Assembly (NCBI GenBank): GCA_022843165.1
Contig: JALHOD010000022.1
Location: 1-57,179 of the forward strand
From: Pseudorhodoplanes sp.
GTDB taxonomy: Bacteria > Pseudomonadota > Alphaproteobacteria > Rhizobiales > Xanthobacteraceae
Direction: 5' to 3'
Length of the DNA stretch: 57,179 nt
Shown here one piece after another: positions 4,178 to 9,596 of this stretch; positions within the stretch are counted from its first letter, which is position 1; each line of letters begins with the position of its first letter. Made by a program: the position numbers and the translations under genes. A model generated the notes under the pieces. The model was given only the letters and a program-made list of their open reading frames with translations. It did no database searches and was not told where the DNA came from.

Positions 4178-4280
4178 GACGACACGGTGTCGGAAAAACG
4201 ATCTGGCGGCAGGCAGGAGCGCGGCATGCTGTGATCCGGAGGCAAGGCCCGGACGCATTATCATGCCGTCCCGGGGCGCG

Positions 4281-4919
4281 CTACCAGCGCAGGACGCGAC
4301 TGCCGGCCAAGGCGCCGAGGCCGGTCGCAATGACGATGGCGAGCGTGAACCAGGCCGCGACGAAAATCGGCGAGTCGTCCGGACAATGCGAGATATAGAG
4401 CGTCGCCGAGAGCGCGCCCGACAACAGGCCGGCCGCCGCGCCGGCGAGCGCCGGCCGCGTCGGCGCGCCATAGCGCAATCCGAACAGGATCGCGGCCAGC
4501 ATCGGCAAGGCCAGCAACACCATGTTGATCACGCAGATATACCAGTGCGCGCCGGCGAGCCGGGTCATCCATTCGCCGCGCGGCACGGTCATGAGTTCAA
4601 CCGCGAGCGCGGCGATCATGATCGCGGGTGCGAGCGCCGCGACCAGCGCCACCGCGCGCGCCGACAGGCCGGGCTTGGCCAGCCGCAGCACGATCGCCGC
4701 CGAGGCTGCGACCAGCAGTCCCATTTCCAGCGGCTTGAGCATGAAGGGCAGCGACATCATCGCGCTGCCGAGATTGGGGCGCAGTCCCACCCAGATCGCA
4801 AACGCCAAAGCTGACACCGCGAAGCCGCAGGCCCCAGCCAATGTCAGGGCGCGGCCGGGCGACGGTCCGGCCGATTGCTGGTCCGCGGCCAGAGCGCGGA
4901 TGAGTTCGTCGGTTCTCAT
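4281..4919 (-). CDS. nrsF: NrsF-family (DUF1109) anti-sigma membrane protein
   Basis: A 212-residue protein with a short cytoplasmic N-terminus (MRTDELIRALAADQQ) and six hydrophobic segments, which is the layout of DUF1109/NrsF proteins. In Caulobacter NrsF holds the ECF sigma factor SigF inactive at the membrane until metal stress. Here its start overlaps the end of the sigma-factor gene by 4 bases (ATGA), the usual translational coupling of a sigma/anti-sigma pair. Conserved cysteines of the kind thought to sense metal are visible (the Cys in WYICVI and the one in SHCPDD). Confidence 0.88.
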   Translation of the reverse strand: MRTDELIRALAADQQSAGPSPGRALTLAGACGFAVSALAFAIWVGLRPNLGSAMMSLPFMLKPLEMGLLVAASAAIVLRLAKPGLSARAVALVAALAPAIMIAALAVELMTVPRGEWMTRLAGAHWYICVINMVLLALPMLAAILFGLRYGAPTRPALAGAAAGLLSGALSATLYISHCPDDSPIFVAAWFTLAIVIATGLGALAGSRVLRW

Positions 4920-5464
4920 GCGTCGCGTCCATGGCGCTTGGCGAGCGCGCTCAGGCCGCGATGCAGCGCCACCCGCACTGCGCCCTCCGTCATCTTGAGC
5001 CTGGCGGCCGTGGTCGCAATCGACTCGCCGTCGACCGCGATGCTTTGCACCACGTCGCGCTGGCCCTGCGGCAGGGTCTGTAGCGAACGGCTGACATCGC
5101 TGTCGCGGCCGGGCTCCGGGCCATCCTCGGCCGCCAGCACGTCAGCAAAATCCTCTACCGGCAGTTCTATGCGGTTGCCGCGCCGGCGCAGGGCGTCGAT
5201 CATCTTGTAGCGCGCAATCCCGTAGATCCACGGCCCGATCGGGCGATCCGGATCCCAGGTCTGCCGCTTCAGATGCACGGCGATCAGAATGTCCTGCACC
5301 ACATCCTCCGTATCGGCGGCGCTCCCGCCGGTGCGGGCGAGCCCGCGCCGCACCGTCGGCCGTAGCACCCGCGCGATGTCGCGCAGGCAGGCGTCATAGG
5401 CCGCCCGGTCGCCGGCATTGGCCGCCCGCATCAGGGCGGCCCATTCGTCTTCGCGCTCTTTCAC
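4916..5464 (-). CDS. sigF: ECF sigma factor, SigF type (ECF16-like)
   Basis: The product has 182 residues. Region 2 lies at about residues 10-95 with DTEDVVQDILIAVH and the WIYGIARYKMIDALRRR helix. Region 4 lies at about 120-178 (LPQGQRDVV then a helix-turn-helix ending VRVALHRGLSALAKR). The adjoining nrsF gene and the divergent bufferin-type operon identify it as a SigF-type regulator of metal stress. A GTAACA-N16-CGAA promoter at 5508-5483 reads into this gene, and its twin reads into the divergent operon. The sigma factor therefore probably drives both, including itself. Confidence 0.9.
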   Translation of the reverse strand: MKEREDEWAALMRAANAGDRAAYDACLRDIARVLRPTVRRGLARTGGSAADTEDVVQDILIAVHLKRQTWDPDRPIGPWIYGIARYKMIDALRRRGNRIELPVEDFADVLAAEDGPEPGRDSDVSRSLQTLPQGQRDVVQSIAVDGESIATTAARLKMTEGAVRVALHRGLSALAKRHGRDA

Positions 5465-5482
5465 GCGCTGTCCTTATCCCAG

Positions 5483-5508
5483 TTCGCGACGGAGGGGTCC
5501 GTTGTTAC
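5483..5508 (-). promoter_or_regulatory. Probable SigF-type promoter of sigF-nrsF
   Basis: Read on the minus strand, GTAACA (5508-5503), exactly 16 bases, then CGAA (5486-5483). As I recall it, the Caulobacter SigF consensus is GTAACC-N16-CGAA. The start codon at 5464 is 19 bases downstream of the -10-like element. Confidence 0.7.
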
Positions 5509-5542
5509 ACCCGAATCCGCCCGATCACATGGACGTGAGCGC

Positions 5543-5568
5543 GTAACACACCGCGCCGCCCCCCCGAA
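5543..5568 (+). promoter_or_regulatory. Probable SigF-type promoter of the bufferin operon
   Basis: GTAACA (5543-5548), exactly 16 bases, then CGAA (5565-5568). The same two elements with the same spacing occur on the opposite strand before sigF, which is unlikely by chance. Transcription would start near 5575, just before a GC-rich hairpin and about 75 bases upstream of the precursor gene. Confidence 0.72.
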
Positions 5569-5578
5569 AGACCCAGTA

Positions 5579-5597
5579 AGGCCGGATCATCCGGCCT
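5579..5597 (+). promoter_or_regulatory. 5'-leader hairpin of the bufferin operon
   Basis: AGGCCGG (5579-5585), loop ATCAT, CCGGCCT (5591-5597) form a 7-bp GC-rich stem within a few bases of the predicted transcript start. It could protect the 5' end of the mRNA or be a protein site; no T-run follows, so it is not a terminator. Confidence 0.5.
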
Positions 5598-5651
5598 GCA
5601 CGCCGGCCGAGGCCGCGCGATGTCATTGTGACCATCGACTGGGAGACATTC

Positions 5652-5933
5652 ATGAACGCCAAGATCACCGCCGCCGCCCTTGCCGGCTCCTTCGCCGCCG
5701 CCCTCGCCGTCACCGCCACCCCGGCCCTCGCGCAGGACAAGGCCAACATGGAAAAGTGCTACGGCGTGTCGCTCGCCGGCAAGAACGATTGCGCCGCCGG
5801 CCCCGGCACCACCTGCGCCGGCACCTCCAAGGTCGATTACCAGGGCAATGCCTGGAAATACGTCGCCAAGGGCACCTGCGTGTCGATGAAGACCCCGAAG
5901 GGCACGGGCTCGCTCTCGGTGATCAAGAGCTGA
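5652..5933 (+). CDS. bufA1: Bufferin-type precursor peptide (DUF2282, BufA1/GigA)
   Basis: A 93-residue precursor. A signal peptide covers residues 1-28 (cleavage after ALA) and the mature peptide is about 65 residues long. It has exactly four cysteines (residues 36, 47, 55, 76) in the DUF2282 arrangement EKCYG...NDCAAG...TTCAG...GTCVSM. In bufferins the DUF692 oxidase and its DUF2063 partner convert cysteines in such peptides to thiooxazole-type groups, and the exported product binds copper. The ATG at 5652 has GGGAGA at 5641-5646. It is the first gene of the operon opposite sigF-nrsF and is separated from the enzyme genes by a large palindromic element, which may allow more peptide than enzyme to be made. 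Confidence 0.9.
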
Positions 5934-5943
5934 AACTTTTTAT

Positions 5944-6075
5944 CCCTCCCCTGAAAGGGGAGGGTCGACGCGAGCGACAGCGAGCGTCGGGGTGGGGTCA
6001 CCGGCAAAAAAGAAGCGGCCCCCACCCGGCTCGCGGCTTTCGCCGCTCGCCACCCTCCCCCTTACAGGGGGAGGG
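5944..6075. repeat. Intergenic palindromic repeat element inside the buf operon
   Basis: Two hairpins frame the element: CCCTCCCC-TGAAA-GGGGAGGG (5944-5964) and CCCTCCCCC-TTACA-GGGGGAGGG (6053-6075). The outer arms can also pair with each other, and the inside has further inverted GC-rich blocks. Elements of this build are common between genes in Bradyrhizobium relatives. Its position between precursor and enzyme genes could affect mRNA processing or stability. Confidence 0.75.
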
Positions 6076-6109
6076 ATAACCGAACGGCAGGTTGAGCGGA
6101 CACATCACA

Positions 6110-6967
6110 ATGCAGCAGCACAGCACCCTCCCCCGCACCGCCGGCGTCGGATTCAAATCCGAACACTTCGCCGACATCGTCGGCGGCGATCAGCCCATCG
6201 GCTTTGTCGAGATTCATGCCGAGAACTACATGGGCGACGGCGGCGCGCCGCATGCGCAACTGCGCGCCCTGTGCGAGCGCTACGCCCTCTCGGTGCATGG
6301 CGTCGGGCTGTCGATCGGCTCCATGGCGCCGCTCGACCGGGACCACCTGGCGCGCCTGAAACGTCTGTGCGACCGCTACGATCCCGCCAGCTTTTCCGAA
6401 CATCTCGCCTGGTCCTCGCATGGCGAGGTCTATCTCAACGACCTGCTGCCGCTGCCTTACACCGACGAGACGCTGGGTCGCATCGTCGGGCATGTCGACC
6501 AGGTGCAGCACGCACTTAATAGGGAGATGCTGCTGGAAAATCCGTCCACCTATCTGCAATTCACGGAAAGCACGATTCCGGAATCCGAATTCCTGGCCGA
6601 GATTTCCCGCCGCACCGGCTGCGGCCTGCTGCTCGACGTCAACAACGTGTTCGTGCAGGCCAAAAATCACGGCACCAGCGCCGAGGCTTACCTGTCGTCC
6701 TTTCCGCTCGATCGCGTGAGGGAAATCCATCTCGGCGGCCACGACGAACAGACCGACGACACGGGCGCGCCGCTCCTGATCGATTCCCACGGCGCGCCGG
6801 TCGCCGATCCGGTCTGGGCGCTGTATGAGCGCGTGATCTCAGCCACCGGCCCGCTGCCGACCTTGATCGAATGGGACAACGACGTGCCCGCCTGGCCGGT
6901 GCTGGCCGCCGAAGCGCGCGCCGCGAAAGCCATTCTCGACCGCGCCGCGCGGCAAAGGGCGGCCTGA
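6110..6967 (+). CDS. bufB: MNIO-family oxidase (DUF692, BufB/HvfB)
   Basis: A 285-residue TIM-barrel enzyme of the multinuclear non-heme iron oxidase family, like MbnB of methanobactin synthesis. The likely iron ligands and neighbours are visible in order: FVEIHAENY (near 33-40), [10 protein letters not shown] (near 61-70), [32 protein letters not shown] and LIEWDND. It should modify cysteines of the adjoining precursor in the cytoplasm. I chose the ATG at 6110; a TTG at 6092 would add six residues with no family support. The partner gene starts one base after its stop. Confidence 0.92.
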
Positions 6968-6968
6968 C

Positions 6969-7751
6969 ATGTTCGCTCCGCTCCAGAACGATTTTGCCGC
7001 GGCCCTGCTCGACGCCCACAAGGCGGTGCCGGACGCGCTCACCGCGCACAATGCGAATCCGCCGGTGAAACGTTTTGCCGTCTACCGCAACAATGTCATT
7101 GTCGGCCTGGTCAATGCGTTGCGCACGCGTTTTCCCGCGACCGAAAAAATCGTCGGCGCGGATTTCTTTTTCGCCATGGCGCGGCTCTTCGTCGCCGCGC
7201 ATCCGCCGCGCTCGAAAATCCTCAGCGCCTATGGCGAGGATTTCCCCGATTTCATCGCTACCTTCGAACCCGCGGCGGAACTGCCCTATCTGCCCGACGT
7301 CGCGCGCCTGGAAGCCGCGCGCACCCGCGCCTATCATGCGGCCGACGCGGAGCCGCTCTCGCCGCAGGATTTCGGCGCGCTCGATCCGGCACAGATCGGA
7401 AACCTGCGCGTCACGCTGCATCCCTCGCTGCAGATCGTGCGCTCCCGCCACCCGGTCGTCACCATCTGGGCGATGAATGCGGGCGACATGGCGCTCGGCC
7501 CGGTGGACGAGAATCGGGCGGAAGACGCTCTGGTGTCGCGTCCCGGTTTCGACGTGCTGGTGCGGCAATTGCCGCCCGGCGGCGCCGCCTTCCTGCTGGC
7601 GCTGGCCCGGGGAGAAGCGCTCGCCAGCGCCGCCGGCGCGGCGCTCGACGAGGCATCCGATTTCGATCTCGCCGCCAATCTCGCCGGACTGATCGGCTCC
7701 GGCGCGACGACAAGCTTCACCCTTTCCGACCAGAAGGACCCTGTATCATGA
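6969..7751 (+). CDS. bufC: DUF2063 partner protein of the MNIO enzyme (BufC/HvfC)
   Basis: A 260-residue protein. The N-terminal domain (residues 1-95) carries the family signature around KRFAVYRNNVIVGLVNALRTRFPATEKIVG, and a second domain follows. In characterised systems this protein recruits the precursor peptide to the DUF692 oxidase. It starts one base after bufB and overlaps the DoxX gene by 4 bases, so the genes are co-translated. Confidence 0.88.
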   Translation: MFAPLQNDFAAALLDAHKAVPDALTAHNANPPVKRFAVYRNNVIVGLVNALRTRFPATEKIVGADFFFAMARLFVAAHPPRSKILSAYGEDFPDFIATFEPAAELPYLPDVARLEAARTRAYHAADAEPLSPQDFGALDPAQIGNLRVTLHPSLQIVRSRHPVVTIWAMNAGDMALGPVDENRAEDALVSRPGFDVLVRQLPPGGAAFLLALARGEALASAAGAALDEASDFDLAANLAGLIGSGATTSFTLSDQKDPVS

Positions 7752-8233
7752 CCGGCATGACTGTTGCCTCGCATTCGCAGACCGGCCTCGCCGGGCTGAT
7801 TGTCCGCGCCAATGCCGCGATGGCGTGCATCCCCTACTGGTTCGTGGCGCTGGTCGGACGCATTTCGATCGCCGCCGTGTTCTGGCGCTCCGGCCAGACC
7901 AAGCTGGACGGCTGGCATGTGTCGGACAGTGCAATCGAGCTGTTCCGCAACGAATACAAGCTGCCGGTGATCGACCCTGTGATCGCGGCTTATCTTGCGA
8001 CCTTTGCCGAGCATTTCTTTCCGGTCCTGCTCGTGATCGGCCTCGCCACGCGTTTCTCGGCGCTGGCGCTGCTGATCATGACGTTGGTGATCGAGATTTT
8101 CGTCTATCCCGACGCCTGGCCGACGCACGGCTCCTGGGCCGCGATCTTCCTGATGCTGATGGCGCAGGGCGCGGGCAAGATTTCGGTGGACGAACTGATC
8201 GCGCGGAGAAACCGGCCGGTGCAATCGCATTAG
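7748..8233 (+). CDS. DoxX-family membrane protein (HvfX/GigT-like)
   Basis: A 161-residue protein with four hydrophobic segments and the DoxX features RISIAAVFWRSGQTKL and the charged E-H pair in TFAEHFFPVLL. DoxX proteins are the usual last member of gig/hvf/buf operons. Their role there is not settled; help with redox balance or copper handling at the membrane is suggested. The start overlaps bufC by 4 bases (ATGA). The stop meets the end of the converging CDF gene. Confidence 0.85.
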   Translation: MTGMTVASHSQTGLAGLIVRANAAMACIPYWFVALVGRISIAAVFWRSGQTKLDGWHVSDSAIELFRNEYKLPVIDPVIAAYLATFAEHFFPVLLVIGLATRFSALALLIMTLVIEIFVYPDAWPTHGSWAAIFLMLMAQGAGKISVDELIARRNRPVQSH

Positions 8234-9150
8234 GGGTACGTGGCGTCCGCAAGAACACAATTCGCGCCAGCGTCGCACTCGATCTGCATCGTGACGTGCG
8301 TGATGCCGAACCGGCTCTCCAGGCCCTCGGCAACCCGCCGAAGAAACGCGTCACCCCGCTCTCCCTCCGGGATCACGAGGTGAACCGTCAGCGCCGTCAT
8401 TGTCGTGCTGATGGCCCAGATGTGGAGGTCGTGCAGATCGGTGACCCCGGGCAACGCGCGCAACCATTTCTCGACCGCGGGCCGGCTGACATTGTCGGGC
8501 ACGCCTTCCATGGTCAGGTGCAGCGCCGACTTGAACAGGCCGAAGGCCGACCAGGCGATCACCGCACTCACCAGAATGGCGGCGATCGGATCGACGACCG
8601 TCCAGCCGGTTGCCAGCATGAGCGCCGCCGATAAAACGACGGCCACCGACACTGCCGCATCGGCCGCCATGTGCAGGAAGGCGCCACGAATATTCAGGTC
8701 ATTGGCGCGGTCCTTGAGAAACAGCAGGGCGCTGGCTGTGTTGACCACAATGCCGGCACCGGCCACCCACATCACCGTCGTCGCTGAAACATTCTCCGGG
8801 ACACCGATGCGTTCGATGGCCTCCCGGACCAGCGCACCGACACCGATCAGGAGTATGATACCGTTCGCGAGCGCCGCCAAAATGGTGGCGCGGCCGAATC
8901 CGTAAGTGTGCCGCTCGTTTGGCTTCAGCCGGCTGAGGCCGATGGCGCCCCATGCGACAAGAAGACCGAACACGTCGGTCAGATTGTGCGCCGCGTCGGC
9001 CAGCAAGGCCAGCGAGCCCGTCAGGAACCCCGCCGCACCTTCAATCAGCACATAGCCGAGGTTGAGAGCCACAGCCCATTTGAAGGCACCGCCATGGTCC
9101 GGCGCGGCGGCGCGGGCATGTCCGTGGTCGTCGAGATGTTCATGCACCAT
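8230..9150 (-). CDS. Cation diffusion facilitator (CzcD/ZitB-like)
   Basis: A 306-residue metal exporter with six transmembrane helices and a cytoplasmic C-terminal domain. The paired metal sites are visible as LADAAHNLTDV (helix II) and HMAADAAVSV (helix V). The N-terminus is His/Asp-rich (MVHEHLDDHGHAR). Family members exchange Zn2+, Co2+ or Cd2+ for protons at the inner membrane. The start at MVHEHL (9150) is preferred over an earlier TTG-type frame start. It is last in a likely five-gene operon and converges on the bufferin operon. Confidence 0.9.
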   Translation of the reverse strand: MVHEHLDDHGHARAAAPDHGGAFKWAVALNLGYVLIEGAAGFLTGSLALLADAAHNLTDVFGLLVAWGAIGLSRLKPNERHTYGFGRATILAALANGIILLIGVGALVREAIERIGVPENVSATTVMWVAGAGIVVNTASALLFLKDRANDLNIRGAFLHMAADAAVSVAVVLSAALMLATGWTVVDPIAAILVSAVIAWSAFGLFKSALHLTMEGVPDNVSRPAVEKWLRALPGVTDLHDLHIWAISTTMTALTVHLVIPEGERGDAFLRRVAEGLESRFGITHVTMQIECDAGANCVLADATYP

Positions 9151-9191
9151 TGATGTCGGCTCACCGGCTGATATCTGAAGCAAGCCGCCCT

Positions 9192-9596
9192 TCAAGGCTT
9201 CCGAAGGATCGCGCCCTCCAGGCGCGTGGCGGCAGCGACCGTATTTGAAATGGTGCCATACTTTCGCACATTCGTGTGCAGCAGATCGAGTCTGCGGTCG
9301 TCCTCGTCTGTGTCGACGATAATTTCATAGTCGACCGAAACCATCTTCGGCGGACTGTCCTGCCGGACACCATGCAGCCGCACCTCCACGCCGCGCAGAT
9401 TGAATTTCAGCATCGGTATGGCCCGCTCGATGCCCTTGATCATGCAGGCCGCAATCGCAGCCAGGAACAATTCCGCTGGGTTGAAGGCGTCGGTGCGGCC
9501 GGCAACGTCGGTATCGAGAACGATTTCGGCACCCTTGCAGCGCGCCAGACTCCCGTGAGTATCCATGCGATGCGCAGAAACGCGATATTCGAGCAT
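9192..9596 (-). CDS. OsmC-family peroxiredoxin-like protein
   Basis: A 134-residue protein with the OsmC fold: NPAELFLAAIAACMIKGIERA carries the second conserved cysteine (Cys51), and the start MLEYRVSAHRMDTHGSLARCKG contains another cysteine at residue 20. OsmC/Ohr proteins reduce organic peroxides, but the pair here is not placed exactly as in classical OsmC (usually about 60 residues apart), so activity is uncertain. It lies 41 bases before the CDF gene and 31 bases after the TAXI gene on the same strand. Confidence 0.78.
   Translation of the reverse strand: MLEYRVSAHRMDTHGSLARCKGAEIVLDTDVAGRTDAFNPAELFLAAIAACMIKGIERAIPMLKFNLRGVEVRLHGVRQDSPPKMVSVDYEIIVDTDEDDRRLDLLHTNVRKYGTISNTVAAATRLEGAILRKP

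Follow-up and report, generated by a model that had tools for sequence, protein, structure and literature searches.

A BufA1-type bufferin operon beside sigF–nrsF in Pseudorhodoplanes and a recurring stem-loop between its precursor and maturase genes

How can one promoter supply a stoichiometric, non-catalytic metal-binding peptide in excess over the enzymes that mature it? This question is raised by a probable bufferin operon in a 57,179-nucleotide (nt) stretch of DNA from Pseudorhodoplanes sp. (Xanthobacteraceae; assembly GCA_022843165.1, contig JALHOD010000022.1, positions 1 to 57,179 of the forward strand; hereafter the window), which belongs to a 3.87 Mb genome in 37 contigs that is 96% complete. 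Here we report the gene content and cysteine pattern of this operon, its SigF promoter motifs and a further such motif before msrP, and a hairpin between the precursor gene bufA and the maturase gene bufB that recurs among related loci.

Gene content and family assignment

The operon on the forward strand consists of bufA (5652–5933), coding for a 93-residue BufA1-type precursor with a DUF2282 domain (PF10048, 88.3 bits, cut-off 22.4), bufB (6110–6967), coding for a 285-residue MNIO maturase (PF05114, 356.8 bits, cut-off 25), bufC (6969–7751), coding for a 260-residue DUF2063 partner protein (PF09836, 92.7 bits, cut-off 27.2), and doxX (7748–8233), coding for a 161-residue membrane protein (PF07681, 68.6 bits, cut-off 23.6). 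Divergent from it, on the reverse strand, lie sigF (4916–5464), encoding an extracytoplasmic function (ECF) sigma factor of 182 residues (PF04542 and PF08281; NF009165, 263.6 bits, cut-off 198), and nrsF (4281–4919), encoding an anti-sigma factor of 212 residues with Cys129 and Cys179 (PF06532, 185.6 bits, cut-off 26.8). The positions of the open reading frames (ORFs) and the family scores thus bear out the four genes, their order, their outer coordinates and the bufferin-type arrangement opposite sigF–nrsF that a sequence-only reading of this DNA had proposed. Its further claim, that neighbouring genes throughout overlap or lie one base apart, holds for bufB–bufC (a 1-nt gap, 6967/6969) and bufC–doxX (a 4-nt overlap, 7748–7751) but fails for bufA–bufB, which are separated by 176 nt, or by 158 nt if bufB starts at the alternative TTG at 6092 instead of the ATG at 6110.

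Since the Pfam scores and the BufB equivalog score given next lie well over their cut-offs, chance resemblance of these genes is excluded. The bufB product also passed the BufB equivalog model (NF050167, 384.8 bits, cut-off 310), and its best solved structural relative is 3BWW. The products of bufC and doxX scored under the cut-offs of the HvfC (NF050145, 36.1 bits, cut-off 142) and HvfX (NF050144, 58.7 bits, cut-off 80) models, and that of nrsF under the cut-off of a narrower NrsF model (NF042994, 137.8 bits, cut-off 300). Membership in the BufA2 family was rejected (NF050166, 21.7 bits, cut-off 60; four cysteines, not six), as was an HvfA-type assignment (four cysteines, and no EGKCG repeat in the precursor). 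A four-cysteine DUF2282 precursor, a BufB-type MNIO, a DUF2063 partner with a PF09836 domain and a DoxX gene, four features of a BufA1 cluster, are present, and at E ≤ 0.001 no second match to PF05114, PF10048 or PF06532 was found in the 96% complete genome. We therefore regard the locus as a BufA1 bufferin operon under SigF–NrsF, with a probability of roughly 0.87. Both the gene set and the association of Buf1 clusters with sigma factor and NrsF genes are already published (PMC12452194), and the Pseudorhodoplanes operon adds one more, probably xanthobacteraceal, member to a family whose chemistry has been worked out in relatives.

For comparison, a BufB scan yielded at least 568 confirmed relatives, of which the best 80 loci were analysed; by their titles these are alphaproteobacterial, with Xanthobacteraceae, Rhizobiaceae and Rhodobacteraceae among them, and some are cut by contig ends. 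A bufC gene was found beside bufB in 80 of 80 loci and bufA in 76, together with DoxX (48 loci), SigF (31) and NrsF (31). The miss of bufA in L012 is probably a fault of the distance rule, because the same contig, sampled again as L093, shows bufA; the other misses are L029, L050 and L071.

Candidate promoters and control by SigF–NrsF

The motif GTAAC-N17-CGAA precedes both divergent transcription units: on the forward strand before bufA (5543–5568, preceded by C) and on the reverse strand before sigF (5483–5508, preceded by T). As the published ECF16 consensus is (T/C)GTAAC-N17-CGAA (passages of PMC8315932), promoters of ECF16 type are present upstream of sigF and of its targets in this genome, and SigF is probably an ECF16 factor, judging from its NrsF partner and this motif. 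No sigma-70-type promoter was found at 5400–8400. Among 27 relatives with a divergent sigF, 14 carried the motif (N15–18) on both arms, with 0.08 and 0.05 occurrences expected over all 27. When CGTA was also allowed, a variant sought post hoc after the strict motif had failed in those loci, the motif stood before bufA in 25 and before sigF in 23 of the 27, and all 19 one-mismatch matches in the 13 non-strict loci were changes from CGAA to CGTA at spacing 17. The CGTA form of the −10 element, on one or both arms, was seen in L015–L023, L026, L027 and L032, whose titles name Shinella, Rhizobium and their kin, and may reflect a lineage shift in promoter recognition.

Genome-wide, spacing 17 was found in 11 of 34 matches to the loose pattern (N15–18). 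Two of them are the sigF/bufA pair, and inspection of the other nine placed eight in or near unrelated ORFs and one, TGTAAC-N17-CGAA, directly upstream of msrP (L115:1962–3033, contig 16 of the genome). The MsrP product reached 496.5 bits with NF003767 (cut-off 207), and because this match covers the longest possible ORF only from residue 24 onward, msrP probably starts at the ATG that lies 100 nt past the motif and not at the one at 28 nt. An MsrQ-like ORF, recognised by eye, follows, and msrP likely belongs to the SigF regulon here as well. A CGTAAC-N17-CGAA sequence was also noted 14 nt before an ORF that by eye resembles an A-type iron-sulphur carrier (L114:1988, reverse strand, contig 12), which may be due to chance.

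The closest known system is that of Caulobacter crescentus/vibrioides (CC3252–CC3257), which shares the gene set and order, the adjoining sigF–nrsF genes, the SigF promoter motif and msrP as a further target; it differs in having two SigF-dependent buf operons, compared with the single DUF2282 gene here. The regulon logic of Caulobacter SigF (buf plus msrP) can thus be read in this lineage. Passages of PMC8224329 and PMC3511200 report that two buf operons and msrPQ are under SigF control, that these and sigF–nrsF are induced by copper and that a sigF mutant is copper-sensitive. The NrsF cysteine pair at 129 and 179 matches residues 131 and 181 of Caulobacter NrsF, which matter for control (PMC3511200, in part), and both cysteines are kept in 31 of 32 aligned rows. 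By analogy with these relatives, periplasmic stress (copper, other metals, or oxidation) would be sensed by NrsF via Cys129 and Cys179, and released SigF would fire at least three promoters, those of sigF–nrsF, bufABC–doxX and msrP.

Several observations weigh against this explanation. The loose pattern gave 34 matches genome-wide compared with 107 for its reversed control; since the bare pattern is not enriched, it is its location that carries the promoter argument. According to a section heading of PMC3511200, Caulobacter can do without sigF and without two MNIO genes, CC2906 and CC3255, in its resistance to metal stress, and a related cluster of Cupriavidus metallidurans was reported to be without effect on copper resistance (PMC8224329, likewise). 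The operon might alternatively answer mainly to periplasmic oxidation by hypochlorite, peroxide or oxidised methionine, with copper binding as a secondary function and DoxX and MsrP as the protective core. In line with this, msrP is the further gene with a SigF motif here, a Brucella ECF16 pair responds to hypochlorous acid (HOCl) and drives msrQP (PMC8315932 and related passages), another ECF factor, Haemophilus RpoE2, drives a DoxX/COG3220/DUF2063 cluster on HOCl, and Caulobacter SigF is both counted among the factors responsive to reactive oxygen species (PMC8315932, in part) and cited as needed for survival of peroxide in stationary phase (PMC3511200, in part). The copper induction of the Caulobacter buf genes and the copper sensitivity of the sigF mutant argue against it, and we consider this explanation unlikely.

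A stem-loop recurs between bufA and bufB

The gap between bufA and bufB is largely filled by a palindromic element of 148 nt (5938–6085, forward strand), which contains simple hairpins at 5944–5964 and 6053–6075 and perfect 12-nt outer arms (5940–5951/6068–6079), and which we take to resemble palindromes of the repetitive extragenic palindrome (REP) type. The region 5925–6115 folds with −99.6 kcal/mol (z = −6.7, 0 of 200 shuffles as good), and the whole element gave z values of −6.7 to −6.9. No Rfam match was obtained up to E = 1 in 4200–9300, and a search for a Y1 transposase, a possible mover of REP sequences, gave one weak match (25.5 bits, cut-off 23).

Strong hairpins of differing sequence were seen just past the bufA stop codon in the gaps of relatives, and from this observation arose a test of 75 bufA–bufB gaps (76 loci and the window, minus two gaps that were too short) with a stem score threshold of ≥9; none of the tests in this analysis takes the relatedness of the loci into account. 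A stem of this score was present in 60 of the 75 gaps, compared with 1.1 expected from dinucleotide shuffles, 1 of 73 stretches of equal length upstream of bufA and 0 of 75 inside bufB. The hairpins began at a median of 12.5 nt past the bufA stop, and their 5' stem arms were distinct in 57 of 59 cases. Folding energies agreed with these counts, with a mean z of −2.42 in 74 gaps versus −0.61, 0.05 and −0.26 for the three types of control stretch, and with z below −3 in 22 of 74 gaps versus 4 of 72, 0 of 74 and 0 of 74 controls. Loci with a sigF neighbour carried the hairpin about as often (24/30) as loci without (35/44), which argues that it is independent of SigF.

Wider samples were examined with a rougher rule for picking the precursor, which was plainly wrong in L120, L131, L134, L138, L162 and L163 and which in L132 picked a BufA2 gene that is also L149; loci without a usable gap were left out (4 of 19, 6 of 29 and 1 of 18 in the three samples named next). 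The hairpin was found in 9 of 15 loci from genomes of the same genus, family and order (two of which, L091 and L093, had already been counted as L011 and L012 in the first set), in 9 of 23 loci of a phylum-wide BufA1 sample, and in 12 of 17 BufA2 gaps, including 5 of the 6 outside the class; the BufA2 sample comprised the 18 of 30 loci above the BufA2 cut-off. The hairpin is therefore a common, not universal, alphaproteobacterial feature of BufA1 operons, and BufA2 operons share it. These also have the precursor gene followed by the MNIO gene, and differ in that, according to PMC12452194, six cysteines are conserved in 90% of cases and sigma factor and NrsF genes were not found beside Buf2. 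No report of a bufA–bufB hairpin was found in the main bufferin survey or a wider search, which did not cover the founding PNAS 2024 paper or any supplements, so that absence of the hairpin from print is not established.

The 148-nt palindrome might simply be a chance REP insertion without function, through which the operon is transcribed. A genome search at E ≤ 0.001, in which 40 of 51 candidates were scored, gave 17 matches, 16 besides the element itself, as such an origin would leave, and 11 of these 16 are confined to the initial 66 nt of the element; no terminator-like site was found on the operon strand within 5938–6085, and the gaps of L009, L010 and L090 are about half as long. Most relatives examined, however, have hairpins of different sequence at the same place, so that a hairpin at that position is the rule and the REP would have replaced one; a functionless insertion thus appears somewhat unlikely.

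Possible role of the stem-loop

We propose that the hairpin, here in the form of the REP-like palindrome, would protect or end the bufA segment of the transcript and thereby let the precursor outnumber the maturase. That it raises the level or the lifetime of precursor mRNA over maturase mRNA is, in our estimate, an evenly balanced proposition, for which the puf operon of Rhodobacter capsulatus, where hairpins in a polycistronic mRNA bear on the decay rates of its segments (PMC7509114, in part), offers an analogy only. The broader proposal, that in both bufferin families a stem-loop conserved in structure and free in sequence sets a large precursor excess and has been rebuilt repeatedly, here from a REP-like palindrome, we hold tentatively, at slightly less than even odds. 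It would provide a simple, testable rule for the question posed at the outset.

Several results speak against a general role of this kind. The hairpin was absent from 15 of the 75 gaps. In the phylum-wide BufA1 sample its frequency did not clearly exceed that of background gaps (Fisher p = 0.07), and all nine hairpins fell within the class, with 0 of 4 outside. In the window itself the simple hairpin is barely at the threshold (score 9, p = 0.07 against its own shuffles). The excess of the hairpin over other same-strand gaps of 40–230 nt in the same loci, which had a stem in 7 of 41 cases (Fisher p = 4 × 10−11 with kinship ignored), is weakened by the small size of this background set and by a crude gene caller, which took only genes of 110 codons or more, leaving room for small genes hidden in the gaps, and recognised only 8 bufA gaps. 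Finally, in a Caulobacter table (PMC8224329, seen in part), the fold induction of bufB exceeded that of bufA in four of four conditions for one operon and three of four for the other, although these fold changes are not mRNA levels.

Instead of protecting an mRNA 3' end, the hairpin could act as a leaky intrinsic terminator or attenuator. The T content is raised after the stem (0.31 versus 0.20 before it), and at least five T in the next 8 nt were found in 5 of 60 cases; the other 55 lacked such a T-run, as did the operon strand of the element at 5938–6085. This makes termination possible, and in our judgement somewhat less probable than an effect on relative mRNA abundance. The location of the hairpin between bufA and bufB would also be compatible with translational control by hiding of the bufB ribosome-binding site. 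Among 59 hairpins, however, the distance from the end of the stem to the bufB start, as assigned by rule, had a median of 26 nt and a minimum of 17 nt; occlusion of the start was rejected on this distance, and this explanation is very improbable.

Precursor maturation and DoxX

As the sequence-only reading had stated, the precursor contains exactly four cysteines, at positions 36, 47, 55 and 76. In an alignment of 77 precursors, that of the window among them, all four are matched in 76, the lone exception beginning at a contig end. The same reading had treated as open which cysteines are modified. For the bufferin family this is not so, because passages of PMC12452194 assign the central two cysteines of Buf1 as the modification targets and the first and last to a disulphide; the same pattern in the Pseudorhodoplanes BufA would be expected from these relatives. 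The N-terminus of BufA looks like a signal peptide by eye only (a lysine, a hydrophobic stretch and ATPALA/Q), and according to work cited in PMC13419390 (in part) the signal peptide doubles as the leader. 5-Thiooxazoles have been demonstrated in fontiphorin, oxazolin and gonophorin, and the same source notes the thiooxazole assignment for bufferin 1, leaving open, in the passages concerned, whether it is the sole modification of the class (PMC13097082). Bufferins are described as sequestering copper in the periplasm (PMC12452194, in part). If the chemistry, export and copper binding of this BufA follow those of its published relatives, BufB and BufC would oxidise Cys47 and Cys55 to thiooxazoles with the signal peptide as leader, Sec would export the peptide, a Cys36–Cys76 disulphide would form, and the mature product would hold excess copper in the periplasm. 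The oxazolin and captophorin clusters (HvfABCX, Fon) share the MNIO, an RRE/DUF2063 partner, a DoxX-like protein in hvf and the 5-thiooxazole on cysteine (PMC13097082 and PMC13419390, each in part), and differ in a precursor with an EGKCG repeat.

As for DoxX, whose role the sequence-only reading had left open, HvfX is called uncharacterised in the passages of PMC13419390 that mention it. Nine residues (Ser48, Thr51, Lys52, Glu88, Gly98, Arg102, Trp130, Gly141 and Asp148) were invariant in an alignment of 49 rows and also in one of 28 rows. DoxX was considered as a cysteine-based thiol oxidoreductase and rejected: its only cysteine (Cys27) is not conserved and no cysteine reached 90% in the 49 rows, and a thiol-exchange role by a cysteine of its own thus appears unlikely. 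The predicted model is helical (predicted local distance difference test score, 94) and matched nothing in the PDB at E ≤ 0.001, the best hit being NACHO/TMEM35A (E = 0.35, template modelling score 0.50).

Neighbouring genes and further loci in the genus

Convergent with doxX, and overlapping its end by 4 nt, is a gene for a CDF-family cation efflux transporter (8230–9195, reverse strand). A functional link with the operon was rejected, as none of the 80 loci, a few of them truncated at contig ends, yielded a relative at E < 1e-20. A BufB relative was found in four of seven other genomes of the genus, the closest being 82% identical, and the assemblies of the three genomes without one consist of 320 to 560 contigs. 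One genome of the same genus, assembled in a single contig (G005), carries two bufABC sets (L092 and L105). The second, within whose 3.8 kb SigF, NrsF and DoxX were not found, encodes a BufB 57% identical to that of the window.

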